Below, piece after piece: positions 2-32,307 of a stretch of DNA of 36,542 nt (position 1 is the first letter of the stretch; the number at the start of each line of letters is the position of its first letter). The notes under the pieces are model-generated. The model was not told where the DNA came from. It was given only the letters and a program-made list of their open reading frames with translations, and searched no databases. The translations under genes were made by a program, and so were the position numbers. The stretch comes from Rickettsiales bacterium (GTDB taxonomy: Bacteria; Pseudomonadota; Alphaproteobacteria; Methylaequorales; Methylaequoraceae): the NCBI GenBank assembly GCA_002691145.1, contig NZHE01000026.1, positions 178,546 through 215,087 of the forward strand, given 5' to 3'.

Positions 2-841
2 TTAATATCAGGACAAATACTTGATCTGGACGAACTTTCCTCAATTTACGTGGCCGCGTCGTGCGAGCTAATACATAATGCTTCCCTTGTTCATGATGAT
101 CTTCAAGATAGAGACTTATTGAGAAGAGGAAGTCCTACAATTTGGAGTCGTTTCGGAGATCCTTCAGCTATAAATTTAGGTGACTATTTTATTTCCAGTT
201 CTTTTGAAATTCTTTCTAATACACCTTCTAGTGAAAAATTTAAATGTATGGCTATCAAAGAATTCAGTAAATCAATTAAACAAGCTGTAGCAGGTCAAAC
301 TAGAGAAATACAAACAAGAGCAGACTTAAATTTACAATTAGAAGACTACGAATCTATGGCTAGAGCAAAAACTGGAAGCTTGCTTAGTCTACCTGTAAAA
401 CTAATTATGATACTTACAGGTAGAAATAACCAGCTTGATATTTCTTTAAAGTCTATTTATGAAGCAGGCGTTGCGTACCAAATTCAAGACGACTTATCTG
501 ATTTCATTGGAATAAAGGAGAGAGATTTACCAGGAAGAGACCTCAAAGAGGGCAAAATGAGTGCACTAATAATAAATTATATTAATGAGGCGTCAATATC
601 TGAGAAATATTTAATAAATTCTTTTCTAAAAAAAAGGTTTGATTCTATTTCAGAGGAAGAAATATTTTTTTGGATTACAAAAATGCAAAAAAAAAATATT
701 ATTGAAAAGACTATAGACTACTTACACCAGGTGATAAAAAAATCTATAAATATTTCTGAAAAGAATGGTAGAGAGTACACATCCATAACAAAATTTATTA
801 TTAAGAATATTTTATCAAGAATATCTAAAAAAATAGTTTAA
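2..841 (+). CDS. crtE: Geranylgeranyl/polyprenyl diphosphate synthase (CrtE), 5'-truncated by window edge
   Basis: Condenses IPP with allylic diphosphates to give geranylgeranyl-PP, the C20 precursor of the carotenoid pathway encoded just downstream. The reading frame is open from base 2, so the start lies left of the window; the GTG at 50 is an internal valine codon. Of the 279 residues visible, the first Asp-rich motif DDLQD is at about 33-37 and the second, QDDLSD, at about 162-167; both bind the Mg-diphosphate. About 20-30 N-terminal residues are probably missing. First visible gene of a plus-strand operon with crtI, crtB, crtY and blh. Family assignment is firm; GGPP rather than FPP specificity is inferred from context. 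Confidence 0.93.
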   Translation, partial: LISGQILDLDELSSIYVAASCELIHNASLVHDDLQDRDLLRRGSPTIWSRFGDPSAINLGDYFISSSFEILSNTPSSEKFKCMAIKEFSKSIKQAVAGQTREIQTRADLNLQLEDYESMARAKTGSLLSLPVKLIMILTGRNNQLDISLKSIYEAGVAYQIQDDLSDFIGIKERDLPGRDLKEGKMSALIINYINEASISEKYLINSFLKKRFDSISEEEIFFWITKMQKKNIIEKTIDYLHQVIKKSINISEKNGREYTSITKFIIKNILSRISKKIV

Positions 842-870
842 TCTAAATAAGTTTGCTTATATTTATTAAT

Positions 871-2346
871 ATGAAAAAATCAGCAATTGTAATTGGCTCA
901 GGTTTTGGTGGCATTTCATCTGCTCTGAGATTAAGAGCTTTAGGTTATGATGTCTCTATTTATGAAAAACTTAATCAATTAGGTGGAAGAGCCAGAGTGT
1001 TTAAAAAAAACGGATTTACATTTGATGCTGGACCCACTGTGATTACAGCGCCATTTTTATTTGATGAACTTTTTAGTTTATTTAAAAAAGAAAGAAAAAA
1101 TTACGTTAAATTTGTGCCTTTGAACCCTTGGTATCAATTTTATTTTAATGACACCAAAAAATATTTTAATTATGGAGGTTCAATAAAGGATACTGAAAAT
1201 GAAATAGAAAAATTTGAGCCAATGGATGTATTAGGATACAGAAAACTCGTTAAAATGTCTGAGAAAATATTCGAAACTGGTTTTAATAAACTATCTCATG
1301 TCCCGTTTGATAGTTTTCTGTTTATGCTTAAACAAATACCGGAATTAATTAAACTTAAAAGTTATCTAACAGTTTCACAACTTGTTGCAAAGTATATTAA
1401 AAATCATGAGATTAGAAAAGCACTGAGTATCCAACCTCTATTACTTGGAGGTAACCCGTTTACTACAACTTCTATTTATAATTTAATTCATTATTTAGAG
1501 AGAAAATGGGGGGTACATTATGCTTTAGGGGGAACGGGAGCAATTATAAATGCTCTGACTAAATTAATGCGTGAGGAGGGCATAAAAATAGTTCTAAACC
1601 AACAAGTGAAAATGATAAAATTTAAAGGCAATGTTGCTGTGGGAATCGAACTTGAAAATGGAAAATCTGTACATTCAAATATAGTTGTGTCAAATTGCGA
1701 TCCTGCACATGTTTACAATAACATGATAAATGCAAAAAAGATAAAAACATGGAAAAAAAAGAAAGTTGATAACTGTGAGTTTTCAATGGGTTTATTTGTA
1801 ATATTTTTTGGGACAAAAAAAAAATATAAGAACGTAGAACATCATACTATATGGATGGGAAATAGGTTCAAGGGGTTATTAAATGATATTTTTAAAAATA
1901 AAATCTTAGCAAAAGATTTTAGTCTTTATTTGCATAGACCCACAGCTACTGATAATTCAATGGCTCCAAAAGGATCTGATTGTTTTTATGTTCTTTCACC
2001 TGTTCCTAATCTCTCGTCAAAAATAAATTGGAGTGAAAATGCTGAAGATTATAAAGAAAAAATTTTGGAAGCACTTGAAAAATCAATTCTACCTAATCTA
2101 AAAAAGAATTTGACTACCTGTTTTTATATGACTCCAGAAGACTTTAAAAATGACTATTTATCTGAGTATGGTTCAGGATTTTCCATTTCACCAATCTTTA
2201 CTCAATCAGCTTGGTTTAGGTTTAATAATAAATCTGAAGATTTCAAAAATTTATACTTCGTAGGTGCAGGAACGCATCCTGGTGCTGGAGTTCCTGGGGT
2301 AATAAGTTCAGCTAAAGTTTTAGAAAATTTATTAAAAAATGGATAA
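871..2346 (+). CDS. crtI: Phytoene desaturase (CrtI)
   Basis: FAD-dependent desaturase that converts phytoene to lycopene. The 491-residue product starts with a dinucleotide-binding motif (GSGFGG at 9-14, followed by an acidic YEK strand end) and ends with the CrtI signature around FVGAGTHPGAGVPGV, both family hallmarks. I chose ATG 871 because it places the FAD motif at the normal distance from the N-terminus; an in-frame TTG at 853 would add six residues. No clear Shine-Dalgarno is seen. The stop overlaps the start of crtB by 8 bp, indicating translational coupling. Length is normal for bacterial CrtI. Confidence 0.96.
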   Translation: MKKSAIVIGSGFGGISSALRLRALGYDVSIYEKLNQLGGRARVFKKNGFTFDAGPTVITAPFLFDELFSLFKKERKNYVKFVPLNPWYQFYFNDTKKYFNYGGSIKDTENEIEKFEPMDVLGYRKLVKMSEKIFETGFNKLSHVPFDSFLFMLKQIPELIKLKSYLTVSQLVAKYIKNHEIRKALSIQPLLLGGNPFTTTSIYNLIHYLERKWGVHYALGGTGAIINALTKLMREEGIKIVLNQQVKMIKFKGNVAVGIELENGKSVHSNIVVSNCDPAHVYNNMINAKKIKTWKKKKVDNCEFSMGLFVIFFGTKKKYKNVEHHTIWMGNRFKGLLNDIFKNKILAKDFSLYLHRPTATDNSMAPKGSDCFYVLSPVPNLSSKINWSENAEDYKEKILEALEKSILPNLKKNLTTCFYMTPEDFKNDYLSEYGSGFSISPIFTQSAWFRFNNKSEDFKNLYFVGAGTHPGAGVPGVISSAKVLENLLKNG

Positions 2347-3190
2347 TTTCATTTCATTAAAGAAAAGATCAAAAAGTTTCTTCTGGGCGTCTTTTTTTTT
2401 TTCCAAAAATGAAACAGATCAAATTAATATCTTATATTCTTTTTGTAGATTAATTGATGATATTTCTGATTCAAATCGTTTTGATAAGAAAACATCGAAA
2501 AAAATTTTAAATAAAATTAAAATTGAAATTATTAATAAAAAGTCCAACGAAATAACTGTTAAAAATTTCATAAAATTAATTAAATTCTTAAATATAGACG
2601 AAAAGATACCGTGTGAACTTATTGATGGTGTGAAGTCAGATTTAAAGAAAGTAAATTTTACTAATATTAGAGAATTAGAAAATTATAGTTATTTTGTAGC
2701 GGGCACAGTAGGGTTAATGATGTGTTCTATAATGAAAGTAAAAAAAAAATCTCTTTATAAACATGCTATTGAGTTAGGAATTGCTATGCAAATTACTAAT
2801 ATAGCCAGAGACTTACGTGAGGATTTAGATAGGGCAAGGATATATTTGCCCGAAACGTTTAGAAGTTTCAAATTTAAAAATGTTGAAGAACTTAGAAATA
2901 ATAAAACAAAGATCAACTTATTTTGCAACGACAACGTAAAATTAATATTGTATTCTGATGTAGTTTATTCATCGGCTAGACAGGGAATATACCAACTTCC
3001 AATGAAACACAGAATTCCGATAATGCTTGCTTCTAATCTATATCAAGAAATTGGAAAAAAAATTATAAGAAATCCAATCAATGTATGGAATACGAGAGTT
3101 TATGTAAGCTTTCAAAAAAAAATTCTTATTACTATTAAAACAATTTTAATTTGTATCTTACCACTTCATAAAAAAAAGAATAATATTTGA
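2339..3190 (+). CDS. crtB: Phytoene synthase (CrtB)
   Basis: Head-to-head condensation of two GGPP molecules to phytoene. The 283-residue protein carries both Asp-rich substrate-Mg motifs: FCRLIDDISD (D40, D41, D44) and the block ending RDLREDLDRARIYLP (R157 to P171), characteristic of the squalene/phytoene synthase family. It overlaps crtI by 8 bp and is followed after 13 bp by crtY. The gene contains an 11-T run (2392-2402) that stays in frame as a Phe stretch. Basic, Lys-rich C-terminus. Confidence 0.95.
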   Translation: MDNFISLKKRSKSFFWASFFFSKNETDQINILYSFCRLIDDISDSNRFDKKTSKKILNKIKIEIINKKSNEITVKNFIKLIKFLNIDEKIPCELIDGVKSDLKKVNFTNIRELENYSYFVAGTVGLMMCSIMKVKKKSLYKHAIELGIAMQITNIARDLREDLDRARIYLPETFRSFKFKNVEELRNNKTKINLFCNDNVKLILYSDVVYSSARQGIYQLPMKHRIPIMLASNLYQEIGKKIIRNPINVWNTRVYVSFQKKILITIKTILICILPLHKKKNNI

Positions 3191-3203
3191 TTAATAGAAA
3201 AAA

Positions 3204-4319
3204 ATGAAAAGTTTTGACATAATTATAATTGGTTCTGGGTTATCAGGTTTATCTCTAACAATAGAACTTTTGAAAAAAACAGATAAAACCGTTTTAATAT
3301 TAGAGAAAAAAAAAAAATTAGTTAGAGATAAAAATTTCTGCTTCTGGAATTCTCCTAAAAACTCTTTTACTAATCAGTGTGATACAATATGGAAGAAAAT
3401 TAAAATCAAAGAACAAGACAGAACTATTATTAAGAGTCATAAGGATTTTTACTATTGCCATTTATCCTCAAGTACATTTTATAATAATTGCCTCAACACA
3501 ATCAAAAAAAATAAGAATGTGAGTATCTTGTTTAATCAAAAAATAAAGTCAGTTATTTCCAAAAAAAACCACGTAATTGTGGATTCAAATAACAAAGCTT
3601 TTAGCTCGAATTTATTATTTGATAGTAGACCAAAGAAATTTGTAAAGTATAAATTATTGCAACATTTTTATGGAATTGAAGTTACATCAAAAAGTAATAT
3701 TTTTGATGAGAATGAGGTTACCCTTATGGACTTAAAACCAGATAAAATGAAAACTCACTTTTTTTACATATTACCTTTTACAAAAAATAAAGCATTGATT
3801 GAAAGTACATATTTTTCTAATAATATTTATCCAAAAAAAAAATATAAATTTGAAATATTTAATTATCTAAAAAAAAATTATCCTGGAGAAGTTTTTAAAT
3901 TAGGATTTGAAGAATATGGTGTTATCCCTATGCACAAAATCCCGGAAAGCGTTTCAAAATGCAGTAAGATCATCAATATTGGTACTAGTGCCAATTGGAT
4001 AAGGATGTCGACAGGATATAGTTTCCAAAATTCATTTATAAATAGTCAAATATTAGTTAATAAAATCATAAAAAAAAAAAAAATTAAAATTGAAGAAAAA
4101 AAAATAACCAATTTTCTAGACAACATTTTTTGTATTTTTTTATCAAATTTTCCAGAAAAAACTAATGTAACATTTTTTAATTTTTTTTTAAAAAATAAAT
4201 TAGATACAATTGTTAGATTTTTAACTGATAGTTATACTTATAAAGATATGTTTAAAATTATTTTCTCACTACCAAAAAAAGAATTGATATATTGTGCATT
4301 TAAATACATCATAAAGTAA
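3204..4319 (+). CDS. crtY: Lycopene beta-cyclase (CrtY type)
   Basis: Flavoprotein cyclising both ends of lycopene to beta-carotene. The 371-residue product has an N-terminal FAD-binding fold (GSGLSG at 10-15, acidic ILEKK at 32-36), the FCFW motif near residues 45-48 and a late S-T-G-Y-S-F motif, all typical of the CrtY family and distinct from the heterodimeric CrtYc/d type. The C-terminal half is extremely Lys/Asn/Phe-rich and contains a 14-A run at 4070-4083 that remains in frame. The TAA is directly abutted by the ATG of blh with no spacer. Confidence 0.92.
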   Translation: MKSFDIIIIGSGLSGLSLTIELLKKTDKTVLILEKKKKLVRDKNFCFWNSPKNSFTNQCDTIWKKIKIKEQDRTIIKSHKDFYYCHLSSSTFYNNCLNTIKKNKNVSILFNQKIKSVISKKNHVIVDSNNKAFSSNLLFDSRPKKFVKYKLLQHFYGIEVTSKSNIFDENEVTLMDLKPDKMKTHFFYILPFTKNKALIESTYFSNNIYPKKKYKFEIFNYLKKNYPGEVFKLGFEEYGVIPMHKIPESVSKCSKIINIGTSANWIRMSTGYSFQNSFINSQILVNKIIKKKKIKIEEKKITNFLDNIFCIFLSNFPEKTNVTFFNFFLKNKLDTIVRFLTDSYTYKDMFKIIFSLPKKELIYCAFKYIIK

Positions 4320-5204
4320 ATGCAGAAAAAAATTGAATTATATATATTCTTATTTTCAATATTATTTTTTAGTGTTACTATTTTTTCATTTGAAGAAATA
4401 TTCAAAAATAACCTAAGAAATCAATTTCTTCTCATTATAATACCTCTCTTATGGCCTGGTATAGCGCACGGTAGCCTTGATTTACACATTGCACAAAGAT
4501 TGAAATTTGTTGAAAATAAGTTTAATCTACTTTTATTTTCATTTGGATATATATTGATTGCGACTGCTTATTTTATTCTATGGCTTATAAATTCGGAATT
4601 ATCTTTGTACCTTTTTCTTTTAATTTCAATTATTCATTTTGGAATAAGTGATACCTTAAATACATCAAATACAAAGTTTTTCTATTTTGAGCTTTTTCTT
4701 AGGGGAACGATTCCTATTATTGTGCCTATAATTTTTTATGAACAAATTACAGATTCAATTTTTTCCTTATTATCAACTAGCAATAACCTCTCACAAATAA
4801 TCAATCAATATTTATATTTTTATTTCGTAATCTTATTAATTGTGTTTTTTAAGGATTTATATACAAAAAAACTTTTTATTAAAGAGCATTATTATCAAAG
4901 CTTGATAGAGATTTTTTTTATTTTTTTGTGTTTTGTTAGTTTTGAGCCTTTAATCGCATTTTCGATATATTTTTGTTTTCTTCACTCAATAAGGCATCTT
5001 TTTGATGAAAAAATTAAATTAAAATTTACTACTAAAAAGCTTATAAAGGCAACTCTACCTCTCACTTTAATTACTACAATTATAATGATATGTATTTATT
5101 ACATGATAAAAGATTTTGAATATATTTATATCTCATTATTATTTATCATTTTATCATGTCTTACAGTACCACATATGCTTTTAGTTAACTTTACAAAAAG
5201 TTAA
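4320..5204 (+). CDS. blh: Brp/Blh-family beta-carotene 15,15'-dioxygenase
   Basis: Integral-membrane Fe(II) enzyme cleaving beta-carotene into two retinal molecules, the chromophore of microbial rhodopsins. Family motifs are visible in order: IAHGSLD (H50, D54), IIHFGISD (H106, D111), LHSIRH (H222, H226) and PHMLL near the C-terminus (H285); these His residues are the expected iron ligands. Most of the 294 residues are hydrophobic helices. It is the last gene of the crt operon, starting one base after the crtY stop, and ends 3 bp from a convergent oxygenase gene. Its presence implies retinal production and hence a rhodopsin elsewhere, since none is in this window. Confidence 0.94.
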   Translation: MQKKIELYIFLFSILFFSVTIFSFEEIFKNNLRNQFLLIIIPLLWPGIAHGSLDLHIAQRLKFVENKFNLLLFSFGYILIATAYFILWLINSELSLYLFLLISIIHFGISDTLNTSNTKFFYFELFLRGTIPIIVPIIFYEQITDSIFSLLSTSNNLSQIINQYLYFYFVILLIVFFKDLYTKKLFIKEHYYQSLIEIFFIFLCFVSFEPLIAFSIYFCFLHSIRHLFDEKIKLKFTTKKLIKATLPLTLITTIIMICIYYMIKDFEYIYISLLFIILSCLTVPHMLLVNFTKS

Positions 5205-5207
5205 ATT

Positions 5208-6050
5208 TTAAAGGGGCCTATTTGTAAAGCAGTTTCTAAACCATTCTTTTTTTTTTTTTTCAAAATTTCCGTCTAGCATTTTTGGTATAGCATAATTATA
5301 CGAATCTGTCTTAGTAACAGTTCTAGTTTCTAGATTAAGTCTATCATGTATCCCTGAATTACTTCCATGCAAATGATGTCCTGAAAAACAAACAATATCC
5401 CCCACTCTAAGTTTAATAACAACTTTATCATTTATATCTACTTTACCAATAATAGTTGGTGTTGAATCTAAATTAATTTTATTTTTTAAGTACTTTTCAA
5501 ATGACCATAAACTAGAATTGTTAATAATTTTTTGATTAAAATATTTTGGTGAAATGAATAAAGTATTATTGCTTAAAATGTCGATTGCAGGGAACCACCA
5601 ATTAATTTGTTCCAAAATATTTGACGCCCACGTGTCTCTGTGTGCTTTTGTATGTTTCAAATTTCCAACAATTTTGTCGTTTTTTTTGGGAATATATCTT
5701 ATGCAAATTCTGTCAATATAAGTATCATGAATACTAAAATCTAACGTTTGTAAAAATAAATTAAATAACTTTTTTATTAACAATGATTTTTTAACTTCTT
5801 TTTGTATATTTAGAAACCTAATATTTAAACTTTTCTTTTCAAAAGAACTTGAATAGTTAAAAATATTGTAGCAAAAAAAATTTTCTACAATATTTCTGAC
5901 TTCTTTGATAATTTTTTTTACTATACTAGAGTTTCTAAAAATAATGATGTGACCTGAAAAAATTTTTACTTTTAAAAATTTCTGAATATTAGTATCTTTG
6001 ATTCTATTAAAACTGTTTGTATTTATCGTTATTATTTTTTTATGGCGCAT
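5208..6050 (-). CDS. Putative Fe(II)/2-oxoglutarate oxygenase (phytanoyl-CoA dioxygenase-like)
   Basis: A 280-residue soluble protein. The visible basis is an HxD pair (H137, D139 in AHRDTW) followed about 90 residues later by GDIVCFSGHHLHGS with candidate distal His ligands (H225-H228), then Arg residues (R237, R243) able to bind 2-oxoglutarate; this is the 2-His-1-carboxylate arrangement of PhyH-type oxygenases. The NWWFPAID segment right after HxD fits the second core strand. No signal peptide or membrane span is seen. It is convergent with blh (3 bp) and divergent from the LOV gene (33 bp). Substrate unknown: a carotenoid, retinoid or unrelated small molecule are all possible. A 14-T run at 5247-5260 lies inside, in frame. 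Confidence 0.72.
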   Translation of the reverse strand: MRHKKIITINTNSFNRIKDTNIQKFLKVKIFSGHIIIFRNSSIVKKIIKEVRNIVENFFCYNIFNYSSSFEKKSLNIRFLNIQKEVKKSLLIKKLFNLFLQTLDFSIHDTYIDRICIRYIPKKNDKIVGNLKHTKAHRDTWASNILEQINWWFPAIDILSNNTLFISPKYFNQKIINNSSLWSFEKYLKNKINLDSTPTIIGKVDINDKVVIKLRVGDIVCFSGHHLHGSNSGIHDRLNLETRTVTKTDSYNYAIPKMLDGNFEKKKKEWFRNCFTNRPL

Positions 6051-7229: not shown

Positions 7230-8248
7230 TGGTAGTTGAAATAATTAACATAAGTATAACTAATGAGGATATAGACAATAGAATAGATTTTCTACTTTCA
7301 AAAAAAATTTCTAAATTTTCAAGAAATAAAATTCAATATATGATTTTAAATGGTCTAGTTGAATACAACTCAAAGATAATTAAAAATAGTTCTTTTAAAG
7401 TAAAAGAAAAGGGTTCTATTAGACTAAAAGTACCTGCCCCAAGAGCCTCAACTATCAAAGCTCAAAAGATTAATTTAGATGTATATTATGAGGATAACGA
7501 CTTAATAATAGTAAACAAACCACCAGGTATGGTAGTTCATCCAGCAGTTGGTAACAATGAGGGAACTTTAGTCAATGCTTTGCTTCATCACTGCAAACAA
7601 AGCTTATCAGGTATTGGTGGCATCGAGAGACCAGGTATCGTTCATAGACTAGATAAAATGACTAGTGGATTACTTATTGTAGCAAAAAATGATTTTGTTC
7701 ATATATCCCTATCAGAACAATTTAAAAAAAAAGATATTACAAGAAAATATAAGGCAATCACCGTTAATAAATTACTTGATTTTAAAGGAGACATTAAAAA
7801 AAACCTTGAAAGGTCAAAATTTGATAGAAAAAAAGTTTGTGTTACAAGCCCTAATAGAGGAAAATTTGCTCATACAAATTATAACCTTGTTAATAAGTTT
7901 GTAATTTCAGATTCTTTAACACTTAATTACATCAACTGCGAGTTATTGACTGGGAGAACTCATCAAATTAGAGTTCATATGAGTTCAATTGGTTCTCCGA
8001 TTCTTGGTGATATAAGTTATGGAAGAAAATTTGATATTAAAAGTAAAAAATTTGAAAAACACTTTTGTGAACTGATCATTAATGACTGGTATTCAAAAAA
8101 AAGACATGCTTTGCACGCTGAAACTTTAGGCTTTTTTCATCCGGTAAAAAAAAAAAAAATGTATTTCAAAAGTACTTTACCTTCTGACTTCTCTAAACTA
8201 TTGAAATATTTAGAAAAATTTAGTATTAATAATGATAATGAATCTTAG
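7229..8248 (+). CDS. rluD: 23S rRNA pseudouridine synthase, RluA/RluD family
   Basis: Isomerises specific uridines of 23S rRNA helix 69 if it is a true RluD. The 339-residue protein has an N-terminal S4 RNA-binding domain (about 17-75) and the RluA catalytic domain with HRLDKMTSGLL, where D142 is the nucleophilic aspartate; HPAVGN and GRTHQIRVH motifs also match. The only standard start is TTG 7229: an in-frame TAA lies at 7223-7225. A 14-A run at 8146-8159 is in frame (a Lys stretch). Located just upstream of rpoH, a common alphaproteobacterial arrangement. RluC- or RluA-type specificity cannot be ruled out. Confidence 0.88.
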   Translation: MVVEIINISITNEDIDNRIDFLLSKKISKFSRNKIQYMILNGLVEYNSKIIKNSSFKVKEKGSIRLKVPAPRASTIKAQKINLDVYYEDNDLIIVNKPPGMVVHPAVGNNEGTLVNALLHHCKQSLSGIGGIERPGIVHRLDKMTSGLLIVAKNDFVHISLSEQFKKKDITRKYKAITVNKLLDFKGDIKKNLERSKFDRKKVCVTSPNRGKFAHTNYNLVNKFVISDSLTLNYINCELLTGRTHQIRVHMSSIGSPILGDISYGRKFDIKSKKFEKHFCELIINDWYSKKRHALHAETLGFFHPVKKKKMYFKSTLPSDFSKLLKYLEKFSINNDNES

Positions 8249-10485: not shown

Positions 10486-11613
10486 TCAAGTCTTATAAGG
10501 TTGACTGTTAAAAATATAAAAATCACAACCTAATTCTATTGCTTTTTTATGCAGTTTAGTTCTGTTCATTTTTTCGTTTACATGTACAAAATAAAAATTT
10601 TTTTTAACTAACGAAATTCTATCAAAATCAATCTCATTTATCGGTACTAAAATCCTTTTTTTTTTTTTTAAAATAATATTACTTTCTTTCATCATATTTT
10701 CAATCAATCCAGAAAATCCTATACATTTTTTGTCCTCAATTTTATAACAACCACCACTAAATAAATCTGTTAAATTCTTAGAGTAAAATTTAAACATTAT
10801 ACCATTATGATATCCTGATTTATCTATTTCTACAGGATCAATATTCATATCAATATTTTTCAATTTCCTATCTATCAACTTTAATGTCTCTAAAAATTTA
10901 TTTATTTCTATTTGTGTAAATCTGGAAAATTTAAAATTACTTAATTCTTTTATTTTATTTTTAAAGTCTCCCTCGTTTTTTAATAAAACTGAGGAAATAT
11001 CAAAAAGTTTTTTTGGAAAGCTTTGTATTTCCGTTAGATTTTTATTACTAAGTTTTTCTTTGAGATTTGTTACCTGACTTCCCTTAAGCTTAAAATCTTT
11101 TATAATAGCATCGAATATTGAAGGCATCGAAAAAATTAAAGAAAAATCGTTAATTTTCATTAATTTTAATAAACTTATGGTCAAAATAATTATCTCAATT
11201 TCAAAATTACTATCTTTATAATCAATAATTTCTGCTCCAATCTGAGTTGATTGTCTAGATACATTTAGTTGATCGCTTTTAACCTTCAGTATTTCACCAA
11301 TGTAACATAATCTTAACGGTTTGTTTTTCTTGGTTAGTGAACTTGATGCTATTCTGGCAATCTGAGATGTTATATCAGAGCGAAGAGCCATCATTTTTTG
11401 TGATAAAGGATCAAGTAATCTAAATGAATTTTTATTTATCTGTTTTTTTGATAAAAGGGAAAAAGAGCTTTCAAATTCTAATAATGGAGGTATTACGACT
11501 TCAAATCCATTGTTAGTTATGAAATTTAAAAATGAGTTTACAATCAAATATTCTTTCTCAGCTAGTTCTGGTAAACTGTCTCTAAATCCCTCAGGAAGTA
11601 AAAAATTTTGCAT
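10486..11613 (-). CDS. hisZ: ATP phosphoribosyltransferase regulatory subunit (HisZ)
   Basis: Class II aaRS-like protein that partners the short HisG to form the allosteric first enzyme of histidine synthesis. The 375-residue product starts LLPEGFRDSLPELA and contains MMALRSDITSQIARIA, the HisZ version of synthetase motif 2, but lacks an anticodon-binding domain, which separates it from HisS. GFSGLIENM is near the C-terminus. HisG is not in the window. The gene starts 1 bp from the serC stop and ends 4 bp before purA. A 14-T run at 10656-10669 is in frame as Lys/Arg residues. Confidence 0.88.
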   Translation of the reverse strand: MQNFLLPEGFRDSLPELAEKEYLIVNSFLNFITNNGFEVVIPPLLEFESSFSLLSKKQINKNSFRLLDPLSQKMMALRSDITSQIARIASSSLTKKNKPLRLCYIGEILKVKSDQLNVSRQSTQIGAEIIDYKDSNFEIEIIILTISLLKLMKINDFSLIFSMPSIFDAIIKDFKLKGSQVTNLKEKLSNKNLTEIQSFPKKLFDISSVLLKNEGDFKNKIKELSNFKFSRFTQIEINKFLETLKLIDRKLKNIDMNIDPVEIDKSGYHNGIMFKFYSKNLTDLFSGGCYKIEDKKCIGFSGLIENMMKESNIILKKKKRILVPINEIDFDRISLVKKNFYFVHVNEKMNRTKLHKKAIELGCDFYIFNSQPYKT

Positions 11614-11614
11614 C

Positions 11615-12709
11615 TTATTTAAAAAATTTATAAAAAGACCAATCTAGCCATTTTGTTAAAGCAATCAAATCTTTTTTTAAAATTGTTGGACCGGTCCAAA
11701 TTCTAATACCAATAGGCATTTTTCTATACGCTTGAATGTCAAATGCTATTTTTTCATGTTTTAAATATTCAAAAACTTTTTCAAGAGCTCTTGATTTATT
11801 CTGGTTACTTAATAAAAAATAAGAACAAGATATAGCTTGATGTTTTGAATCTTTTACAAAATATTCAATATTTGTATTATTTTTTACTAGTCTTCTTAAA
11901 ATCTGACAATTTTCATTGGATGTTTTATTTGACCAATTTAAACCACCTTTTTTTTTTAACCAATCTAGGCAAAATTTAAAATCTGCAAAACATAATAATG
12001 AAGGTGTGTTAATCATAAAATTATTCTCACTAATATTTAAAATTTTAGGAAAAATCTTTTTTTTTTTTTTGAATTTTAATCTTTCTAATGCTTTTGGACT
12101 TAAAATAATTAGGCCGTGTTGAGATTCAGAGCCAAGAGCTTTTTGCCATGAAAAGAAAGAAACGTCTAATTTTTTCCAATTAATTTTTTCAATAAAAACA
12201 CTTGAGGAAATATCTGAAATCACTAATCCCTCATGTTTATTAGATATCCAATTAATTTCATTAATAGAAATACCGGCTGACGTTCCAGTCCAAACAAAAA
12301 AAATATCACTATCAGTTTTAATATTTTCAAGTGGAGGAACAACTCCATATCTTTTGTACCTCACTTCTTGCTTATATTTTGCTTTAATTATTTCATCTGA
12401 CCACAATTTACCCCAATAATCGTAGATGATTGATGTAATCACTCTATCTCCGAGCAAAGAATGGATAATAGCTGTCATTGCTCCAGTACATGAACCAGGA
12501 GATAATAAGATTTTATAATTTTTTGGTATTTTAAGAATATATTTTACTAATAACAAAATTTCATTTAAGTAATTTTTTACCTCCATACTTCTATGATACC
12601 TACCTAAGAATGAATAATTGAGTTTGGATAAAGACCATTCACTTGGTTTTTTTGTAGGTCCAGAGGAAAAATTTGTAAATCTAGGTTTTTCTTTTGGCTT
12701 TAAAATCAT
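11615..12709 (-). CDS. serC: Phosphoserine aminotransferase (SerC)
   Basis: PLP enzyme interconverting 3-phosphohydroxypyruvate and phosphoserine in serine synthesis; it may also serve pyridoxal phosphate synthesis. The 364-residue protein begins PRFTNFSSGPTKKP and has the cofactor lysine in SWQKALGSESQHG (K190), matching the alphaproteobacterial SerC subgroup. SPGSCTGAMTA (70-80) is the phosphate-binding loop region. ATG overlaps the permease TGA by 4 bp. In many alphaproteobacteria serA follows serC; here hisZ comes directly instead. A 14-T run at 12057-12070 is in frame. Confidence 0.9.
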   Translation of the reverse strand: MILKPKEKPRFTNFSSGPTKKPSEWSLSKLNYSFLGRYHRSMEVKNYLNEILLLVKYILKIPKNYKILLSPGSCTGAMTAIIHSLLGDRVITSIIYDYWGKLWSDEIIKAKYKQEVRYKRYGVVPPLENIKTDSDIFFVWTGTSAGISINEINWISNKHEGLVISDISSSVFIEKINWKKLDVSFFSWQKALGSESQHGLIILSPKALERLKFKKKKKIFPKILNISENNFMINTPSLLCFADFKFCLDWLKKKGGLNWSNKTSNENCQILRRLVKNNTNIEYFVKDSKHQAISCSYFLLSNQNKSRALEKVFEYLKHEKIAFDIQAYRKMPIGIRIWTGPTILKKDLIALTKWLDWSFYKFFK

Positions 12710-14662: not shown

Positions 14663-17255
<2,593 letters not shown>

Positions 17256-17261
17256 TTTTTT

Positions 17262-17267
17262 ACCTTT
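17262..17267 (-). promoter_or_regulatory. Ribosome binding site deciding the ATT start of thiD
   Basis: On the minus strand AAAGGT stands here, with the last G seven bases from the ATT codon at 17255. It is a good match to the anti-Shine-Dalgarno core at ideal spacing and lies between the glmM stop (17269) and the ThiD homology start, supporting initiation at ATT rather than at the internal GTG. Confidence 0.6.
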
Positions 17268-17268
17268 T

Positions 17269-27677: not shown

Positions 27678-28112
27678 TTATACTAATTTTATTTCATTAA
27701 GTAAAAAACTTAATTCATTAATTATTTTTGTGGGTCTTTGATTTTTGCTACTTATCCAAACCAGTTGAACATCCATGATGCAATGTTCTTGTGTGTTTTT
27801 TTTTAATATCTGTTCAAGCCATATTGAAGTTTTGGTAACTTTTTTTAAAATTGTTGAAATAACTAAATCATCAAATAACAAACAAGGTCTTAAATAAGTT
27901 ACATTTATTTTTCTAACAACAAAAAAAAAATCACCATTTTGAAGTATTTTTTTTATTTTTGGATATAGAGTTATTAATAGATTAGTTCTAGCTCTTTCAA
28001 AATATTTCAAGTACGAAGCGTAGTAAACAACGCCAGCGCAATCTGTATCTTCATAAAATACTTTTATTTTAAAATTTGATTTTTTGAGTTTATTAACCTT
28101 TGTGATTTTCAA
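27678..28112 (-). CDS. ybgC: Acyl-CoA thioesterase YbgC (hotdog fold)
   Basis: Tol-Pal associated hotdog thioesterase. The 144-residue protein has the family motif [25 protein letters not shown], with the catalytic Asp in EDTD (positions 21-24), and normal length. The only usable start is TTG 28112, ten bases after AAGGA, inside the last codons of ruvB: the two genes overlap by 20 bp. The thioesterase substrate in vivo is unsettled for the family. Confidence 0.9.
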
Positions 28113-29096
28113 TATGTAATAATCCTTTCTTCGATAAAACCCTTCCTCTGGAAGTTCGTTGAACTAATCCTTTTTGGATAAGGAATGGTTCAACCACATC
28201 TTCGAGAATGTCTTTTTCCTCCAGTAATGCAGCACTTAAATTTTCAATGCCAACAGGTCCTCCCTCGTAATTTTTTACTATACAGTTCATATATTTTCTA
28301 TCCATTTCATCTAAACCCAAAGCATCAATTTTTAAATTCTTTAATGACTGATTTACTATTTCTACATCTATTTTCCCTGAATCCTTGACAACAGCAAAAT
28401 CTATTGTCCTTTTCAATAATCTAATTGATATACGCGGTGTTCCTCTAGATCTTATTGCTATTTCAATTGCGGCTTCTTCATTAATATGAACCTTCATTAA
28501 TTTTGCAACTTTAATTATAATGATTTTTAGATCCTCTGGTTTATAAAAACTTAATTGAAGTGGAATACCGAATCTATCTCTCAATGGTCTGGATAGCAGT
28601 CCTAATCGAGTAGTTGCTCCAATAAGAGTAAATTGCTCAACTGAAATTTGCATCACTCTTGCTGATGGACCCGAACCAATAACATAATCACATTTAAAAT
28701 CCTCCATAGCGGGGTATAATGTTTCTTCAATTATTGGAGATAATCTGTGTATTTCATCTATAAATAAAATATCTCCATTGGAAAGGTTACTTAATAGAGT
28801 AACAAGATCCCCTTTTTTTGTAAAAGCTGGTCCACTAGTAATGTGTATATTCGTTTTTTTTTCATTTGAAACGATTTTAGCCAAAGTAGTCTTACCCAAG
28901 CCTGGTGGTCCGTAAAAAATTACATGATCAAGGATTGTTTTTTTTTTATAGAGGCCTGAATAAATGTATTAAGGTTTAATTTTAAAGTTTTTTGTCCAAT
29001 GAATTCACTCAATAAATTTGGTCTCAAGCTCAAAATTTCAGAATCTTCTTTTAATTTCTTAAGTCCAGTTATCTTTTCATTTTTAATTTCTATCAT
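28093..29096 (-). CDS. ruvB: Holliday junction helicase RuvB, interrupted by a -1 frameshift at a 10-A run
   Basis: AAA+ motor that with RuvA drives branch migration. ATG 29096 opens a frame reading MIEIKNEKITG...LRPNLLSEFIGQKTLK, the RuvB N-terminus, but it stops at 28920 after 58 codons. The rest, from LDHVIFYGPPGLGKT onward (Walker A, IDEIHRLSP, GATTRLGLLSRPLRDRFGI, C-terminal winged helix), is in the -1 frame. One extra A in the run at 28938-28947 would restore a 334-residue RuvB with no gap in homology. So this is a sequencing error, a recent lesion, or a slippage-expressed gene. Starts 10 bp after ruvA; overlaps ybgC by 20 bp. Confidence 0.9.
28938..28947 (-). other. Poly-A frameshift site in ruvB
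   Basis: Ten consecutive A on the coding strand (zero-frame codons ATA AAA AAA AAA CAA). Homology requires moving to the -1 frame here. The sequence contains the slippery heptamer A-AAA-AAA in frame, and a run this long is also prone to RNA polymerase slippage. Confidence 0.85.
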
Positions 29097-30942: not shown

Positions 30943-31746
30943 TTATTTATTCCCTATGATGCCACCAATTTTTATTTGTTTGAATGATTGAACCTTTAGA
31001 CTCATTTCATCAATTTTTAAAATTATACCACATAAAGTGGCTTCTCCATTTGCAGGCTCAAATCGACTTTTTTTATGTTTATGCAAAAATCTTGACAAAG
31101 ATATGGTCTTATCCATTCCAACTACAGAATTATAATCGCCACACATACCAAGATCAGTTTGATAAAAAGTTCCTTTCTCTAGTAAGTGTGGATCAGCTGT
31201 TGGAACATGAGTGTGTGTTCCTACAACAGCAGAAACCTTCCCATCTAAATAATGCCCTAAAGCCATTTTCTCAGAAGTTGCTTCTCCGTGGATATCAACT
31301 ATAATTATGGTTTTTCCCAATTGATTATCTAATTTATACAAAACAGATTCGATGGCTCTGAAAGGATCATCATAAAGATCCATAAATAGTCTGCATATCA
31401 GGTTAATTACAACTACATAGGTTCCGTTAACCATAGAAAAAACTCCATACCCATTTCCTGGTGAATCAGTTGGAAAATTTATTGGTCTTAAGAGTCTTTT
31501 ATCGTTTCCGATATATCCTGTTATTTCCTTTTGATCCCAAACATGATTACCAGTTGTTATGACATCAACTCCAATGTTATAAAACTGTTGGCAAATTTTT
31601 TTTGTAATACCAAAGCCATTAGCAGCATTCTCACCGTTTACGACTATAAAATCTAAAGATTCCTCAGTTTTTAATCCGGGAATTTTATTTTCAATAATTT
31701 CTCTTCCAGATTTTCCAACAACATCACCACAAACTAAAATTTTCAT
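30943..31746 (-). CDS. YmdB-like metallophosphoesterase
   Basis: A 267-residue member of the YmdB/TIGR00282 calcineurin-like phosphoesterase family; the Bacillus protein is a 2',3'-cAMP phosphodiesterase. Metal-site motifs are visible: CGDVVGKSGR (D8), VVNGENAANGFG (N39 region), TTGNHVWDQ (H near 68) and GTHTHVPTAD. It starts 1 bp after the restored stop of the cyclo-ligase gene and ends 1 bp before yebC. Natural substrate in Alphaproteobacteria is unknown. Confidence 0.9.
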   Translation of the reverse strand: MKILVCGDVVGKSGREIIENKIPGLKTEESLDFIVVNGENAANGFGITKKICQQFYNIGVDVITTGNHVWDQKEITGYIGNDKRLLRPINFPTDSPGNGYGVFSMVNGTYVVVINLICRLFMDLYDDPFRAIESVLYKLDNQLGKTIIIVDIHGEATSEKMALGHYLDGKVSAVVGTHTHVPTADPHLLEKGTFYQTDLGMCGDYNSVVGMDKTISLSRFLHKHKKSRFEPANGEATLCGIILKIDEMSLKVQSFKQIKIGGIIGNK

Positions 31747-31747
31747 A

Positions 31748-32307
31748 TTACTTAATTATACTAGTTGGAGTAATAATAAAATCTAATTTTTGATCAAAAT
31801 AATTTTTTGGTACCTTTTTTGTAACTTGTTCATCAAAAGATACTCCAATTGCTACAATATTTTTTTTTTTCTTAAATATTGAATTGTTTTGTCATAATAT
31901 CCTCCTCCATAACCAATTCTGTATTTCAATGAATCAAAACAAACAAGAGGAACAATTAATAAATCCGGTTCAATTTCACACTTAGAAAATGGAACCTTTA
32001 TATTGAATTTTCCAATTTCTAATGGTTCATTAAAATCCCAAAAACTAAAAAATAATCTTTCTTTTAAATTTTTTATAAAAGGGAAACAAATTTTGGTGTT
32101 TTGCTCCTTTAAAAAATTTAAAGTATAAAAAATATCGACCTCATTTTTCGTTGAAAAATATCCAGAAATGATTTTCGTATTATACTTACTTAAAAATTTT
32201 AATAGCCTAAAATTTAAACTAAAAGTTTTCACTAATTTTTTTTTTATATTTTGTCTTTTTTTTAAATAAATGATTCGTAACTGCTCTTTAGCTTTAGATT
32301 GTTTCAT
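31748..32307 (-). CDS. 5-formyltetrahydrofolate cyclo-ligase, interrupted by a -1 frameshift at an 11-A run
   Basis: ATP-dependent conversion of 5-formyl-THF to 5,10-methenyl-THF. The first frame gives 151 residues with the ATP-site motif YRIGYGGGYYDK and then ends early at a TAG just after KKKIL. In the -1 frame the missing end continues at once: VAIGVSFDEQV, KKVPKNYFDQKLDFIITPTSIIK, stopping at 31748-31750, one base before the ymdB-like start. One more A in the run 31860-31870 would give a complete 186-residue enzyme. Same type and direction of lesion as in ruvB. Lies 5 bp after zapA. Confidence 0.88.
31860..31870 (-). other. Poly-A frameshift site in the cyclo-ligase gene
   Basis: Eleven A on the coding strand (zero-frame AGA AAA AAA AAA ATA TTG TAG). 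Homology requires the -1 frame (AAT ATT GTA GCA). It also includes an in-frame A-AAA-AAA slippery heptamer. Twelve A would restore the enzyme. Confidence 0.85.

Follow-up and report, generated by a model that had tools for sequence, protein, structure and literature searches.

A 5-formyltetrahydrofolate cyclo-ligase gene split at an A11 run in a marine alphaproteobacterial bin: frame breaks at long A/T runs and their probable origin as homopolymer-length errors

The stretch of DNA analysed here (the window) comprises 36,542 nucleotides of a Rickettsiales bacterium (GenBank assembly GCA_002691145.1, contig NZHE01000026.1, positions 178,546 to 215,087) and lies at the right-hand end of a contig of 215 kb in a bin of 2.03 Mb and 29 contigs. 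The element in question is a gene of folate salvage, that for 5-formyltetrahydrofolate cyclo-ligase, whose coding span is 32307..31748 on the minus strand. As assembled, this gene has no single uninterrupted frame, a property that is otherwise ordinary for Pfam family PF01812 though it does not define homology. The features of the locus are as follows.

31852..32307, minus strand: N-terminal 151 amino acids of the cyclo-ligase in frame 0, matching PF01812 positions 1-151
31860..31870, minus strand: A11 run (T11 on the plus strand), the point of frame change, in a Lys/Asn-rich protein loop that is A-rich family-wide
31748..31859, minus strand: homologous C-terminal part, IVAIGVSF...TSIIK, read in the -1 frame up to its TAA stop, supported by a profile match and a relative's protein
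30943..31746, minus strand: open reading frame of the next operon gene, 267 amino acids

The first open reading frame (32307..31852) encodes 151 residues ending in LRKKKIL, and its stop codon lies just past the A11 run at 31860-31870. Beyond the run, the -1 frame encodes IVAIGVSFDEQVTKKVPKNYFDQKLDFIITPTSIIK and terminates with a TAA at 31750-31748; the C-terminus in this frame extends from IVAIGVSFDEQV to PTSIIK. A single base (31747) separates the TAA from the ATG (31746) of the next gene, which we take to encode a metallophosphoesterase of the YmdB/TIGR00282 type. An earlier note, made from the sequence alone, had described the stop after KKKIL, the C-terminus in the -1 frame one base ahead of the next gene, and a rejoined product of 186 residues. 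These coordinates proved exact and translation of the two joined pieces gave 186 amino acids; the note was thus correct about the split, the frame and the product, and it had left the choice between read error and slippage undecided.

Profile comparison assigned both pieces to the same family. The N-terminal piece matched PF01812 positions 1-151 (1.9e-17; 64.2 bits, cut-off 27), and the C-terminal piece of 35 amino acids, searched alone, matched positions 158-186 (0.0017; 18.7 bits). In addition, an intact protein of 190 amino acids from a relative matched both pieces in different frames, with 3.7e-9 for the C-terminal part. Because the two pieces fit consecutive parts of the profile and the relative's protein spans both frames, the split is exact and not a product of chance. 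Both halves also occupy the expected operon position, and the only difference from other members of the family is the shift of frame by one base at the A11 run. No second copy of the locus that could be used for comparison of run length was present in the bin, and an Rfam scan of the window found no structured RNA above threshold near zapA and the cyclo-ligase gene.

Alignment with relatives, a check that the earlier note had suggested, covered approximately 20 family members at this site. Each of them encodes a loop rich in Lys and Asn whose DNA is rich in A and contains A runs of differing length. Only two of the frames are interrupted: that of the bin that contains the window (A11, one base short) and that of TMED13, a genome of another genus (A11, one base too many; L160 4906-4916, in the same loop). 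It might be proposed that frameshifting or slippage is programmed in the cyclo-ligase family and has a regulatory role, given that two genera are interrupted at one A-rich loop. However, the two interruptions are opposite in sign, the same kind of lesion occurs in unrelated genes (see below), and programmed slippage is disfavored because the intact relatives read through the site with runs of varied length. This proposal is largely refuted and we regard it as extremely improbable. Miscounting at a hot spot would explain why this A-rich loop is broken independently, and with opposite sign, in two metagenome-assembled genomes (MAGs); a conserved programmed shift would not.

Breaks of this kind were then considered across the bin, of which approximately 804 kb was sampled in stretches and compared with the proteins of relatives by tblastn. 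A break was scored wherever adjacent, colinear parts of one gene lay in different frames; detection by alignment is confined to conserved genes, is blind to three-base changes, and was followed by visual inspection for only part of the breaks counted below. With the proteins of the single-cell relative AG-349-G20 (G006), the homologous coding DNA amounted to 304 kb and contained 14 breaks, almost every one of them at an A/T run of 9-15; the reciprocal test on G006 gave one break, at a G5 run. When the proteins of three relatives were used, there were 24 breaks at A/T runs of at least 8 in approximately 443 kb of homolog-covered coding DNA, and one break elsewhere. The number of broken runs was 1 of 420 at length 8, 3 of 200 at length 9, 5 of 84 at length 10, 6 of 29 at length 11 and 9 of 43 at lengths of at least 12, and in total 20 of the 156 homolog-covered coding runs of at least 10 were frame-broken. 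Thus, the breaks are confined to homopolymers and become more frequent with run length.

Besides the cyclo-ligase gene, the broken genes include ruvB and those for an RNase J homolog, a GlnD-like protein and a ThiO-like oxidase, whose halves are otherwise well conserved. The ruvB break (28093-29096, minus strand) lies in the window 3 kb from that of the cyclo-ligase gene, with the P-loop motif directly after it in the other frame.

28938..28947, minus strand: A10 run of ruvB, splitting the N-terminal part (29096..28920) from the main part (28899..28093); a break like that of the cyclo-ligase gene and of the same sign

Such lesions in unrelated household genes bear on the possibility that the cyclo-ligase gene is a genuine recent pseudogene and that the enzyme has been lost in this lineage. 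The frame is indeed broken as assembled, and a Pfam search did not find PF01812 in 19 of 60 relatives, many of which have incomplete genomes. On the other hand, both halves of the gene are well conserved and carry no second lesion, and loss of the enzyme appears very improbable.

The earlier note also stated that the cyclo-ligase and ruvB breaks have the same direction. This holds for the pair but not for the genome, in which 16 of the 24 breaks have an extra base and are opposite to these two, and 8 have a missing base. The mixed directions fit miscounting of run length.

To relate the breaks to the origin of the genomes, we compared three MAGs of three genera (the window bin, TMED13 and MED715) with single-cell sequences of the same family, namely G006 and eight single-cell loci. 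Among A/T runs of at least 10, 28 of 292 were broken in the MAGs and none of 105 in the single cells (Fisher p = 2e-4); for runs of at least 11 the corresponding numbers were 23 of 134 and 0 of 50 (p = 7e-4). TMED13 had breaks at A9, A11, A11, A12 and A13 runs, and MED715 at A11, A13, A15 and A15 runs and at one run of 9. By contrast, G006 and the eight loci of other single cells had no breaks at runs of at least 9. It is also observed that the MED715 breaks at L178 6045-6055, L183 7692-7704, L185 2482-2496 and L192 5097-5111, at runs of A11-A15, each have one extra base. The breaks therefore appear to follow how a genome was obtained rather than its lineage, the window bin being counted as a MAG. 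Since the breaks occur in both directions, are more frequent in longer runs, reappear in two other MAGs and are absent from single-cell relatives, the hint in the earlier note that a shared direction carries meaning was not borne out.

This comparison also bears on whether the one-base change is real and belongs to a minority or fluctuating allele, generated by replication slippage at poly-A and picked up by the metagenomic consensus. Long runs of A have a high mutation rate owing to slippage, any allele of a mixed population may end up in its consensus, and the single-N ambiguities of the bin (see below) agree with such a mixture. But if alleles of this type were common, related single cells should show some of them, and none of their 105 long runs was broken; this explanation is unlikely.

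A further explanation is a real indel that has become fixed, with part of the mRNA re-phased at the A11 run by RNA polymerase, or part of the translation by a -1 ribosomal slip, to yield the full-length enzyme, as has been reported in Buchnera and Blochmannia. A/T runs of at least 9 are slippage-prone in many bacteria (PMC1088944), and eight slippage-rescued genes, including dnaX and dnaG, have been described in Blochmannia vafer (PMC3017870). The present case resembles these systems (PMC3017870; PMC1088944) in its AT-rich genome and in one-base indels in A9-A12 runs of household genes that are otherwise intact. The A11 run exceeds the minimum of approximately 9 A/T for such breaks, a one-base change restores the frame, and the C-terminus is conserved and correctly placed. 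However, this is an apparently free-living marine bacterium, analyzed here at the DNA level, whose bin has 2.0 Mb compared with 0.9-1.6 Mb in sister genera, and dozens of its genes would have to rely on leaky rescue. Indels of the Buchnera and Blochmannia type would be expected in the DNA of the organism and often in related strains. The relatives compared here, all of other genera, are intact except for TMED13, whose break has the opposite sign, and neither the sign nor the presence of the break is conserved among them. Equally long runs are never broken in the single-cell relatives, yet they are broken in MAGs of other genera. Rescue of the cyclo-ligase gene by slippage is accordingly quite unlikely, and it is distinctly improbable that the indels are real throughout, with a free-living AT-rich marine lineage tolerating dozens of broken household genes by means of RNA polymerase re-phasing at A/T runs of at least 10. 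If that were true, slippage-rescued genomes would extend from insect endosymbionts to free-living plankton.

A homopolymer-length error of one base at the A11 run of a metagenome-assembled consensus is, at a probability of roughly 0.78, the explanation of the split. It is favored because many breaks occur in three MAGs and none in the genomes of single-cell relatives, and the evidence points to an ordinary error of this kind as likelier than new biology. Long A/T runs might be miscounted through polymerase stutter during library amplification, or when a mixed population is assembled and merged into one consensus, and the probability of a miscount would climb with run length. Coding runs of 10-15 are numerous in this AT-rich genome (28% G+C), so that frame breaks would be expected in a predictable fraction of its genes, ruvB and the cyclo-ligase gene among them. 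PCR amplification is a documented cause of poly-A/T indel errors in short reads (PMC4240813). The breaks described here are like the errors of amplified short reads and metagenome assemblies in that they are one-base, length-dependent changes at long A/T runs, in both directions and in unrelated genes, with none in single-cell relatives; they differ in that the step (PCR stutter, bubble choice by the assembler or contig merging) is not nameable from the consensus alone. The break pattern itself is an observation, whereas the origin of the errors, in vitro or in silico, and the step responsible are what we infer.

The composition of the bin is relevant to this reading. The bin is the sole member of its genus in the comparison set and belongs to a marine alphaproteobacterial family whose other genomes have 0.9-1.6 Mb. 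Its main contigs have approximately 28-30% G+C; seven others (L085, L086, L088, L090, L091, L092 and L094) have 35-44% compared with 28-30% in the large ones, and these may be foreign and could account for the larger genome size. Single Ns are scattered through the bin (333 in 804 kb) and are absent from the single-cell sequences; in L118-L123 and L130-L134 there is a single N approximately every kb across more than 100 kb, and neighboring stretches have none. These Ns look like positions at which the strains behind a merged consensus differ. Because of the contigs of 35-44% G+C and the scattered single Ns, the bin is a consensus of uneven quality. MED715, by its accession, is within the range of a published set for which samples were assembled one by one and contigs from different samples were then combined by Minimus2 at 95% identity (PMC5769542). 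The Ns of the window bin are the sole hint that it may have come from a pipeline of this sort. A 16S rRNA, sought as a clue to the assembly method, was not found in the bin. The use of Ns as markers of breaks was ruled out, as the window has two breaks and zero N.

Several points weigh against a length error as the cause of the split. The window itself is without any N. The sequencing method of the bin is not on record, and the tallies treat the bin as a MAG. The distinction between MAG and single cell is partly confounded with genus, and with the bin alone in its genus there is no conspecific single cell for a direct test of the allele. Finally, many long runs in the window are in frame, including five A14/T14 runs inside open genes:

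4070-4083: in-frame A14/T14 run in an open gene
5247-5260: in-frame A14/T14 run in an open gene
8146-8159: in-frame A14/T14 run in an open gene
10656-10669: in-frame A14/T14 run in an open gene
12057-12070: in-frame A14/T14 run in an open gene

Because these runs are in frame, the assembly does not fail grossly at homopolymers, and most long runs are right.

Two other regions of the window should be mentioned. The open frame of the thiD gene (16485-17268, minus strand) continues well upstream of the GTG listed as its start and reaches into the conserved motif SIAGSD, with no ATG, GTG or TTG at its head, which could reflect either a rare start codon or another nearby length error. Being open upstream and having no canonical start, it was left out of the count of breaks. 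At 50-5204 (plus strand) there is a carotenoid cluster whose last gene encodes a membrane protein of 294 amino acids, presumably resembling the Brp/Blh beta-carotene dioxygenase; this putative Brp/Blh protein suggests production of retinal for a rhodopsin encoded elsewhere in the genome.

Taken together, the apparent split gene is most likely an ordinary 5-formyltetrahydrofolate cyclo-ligase gene of 186 codons. Our results call for caution, since in AT-rich MAGs like this bin approximately one-eighth of the coding A/T runs with a length of at least 10 may be one base off. Therefore, claims of gene loss, pseudogenes or split genes at such runs need the support of reads or of a single-cell genome.
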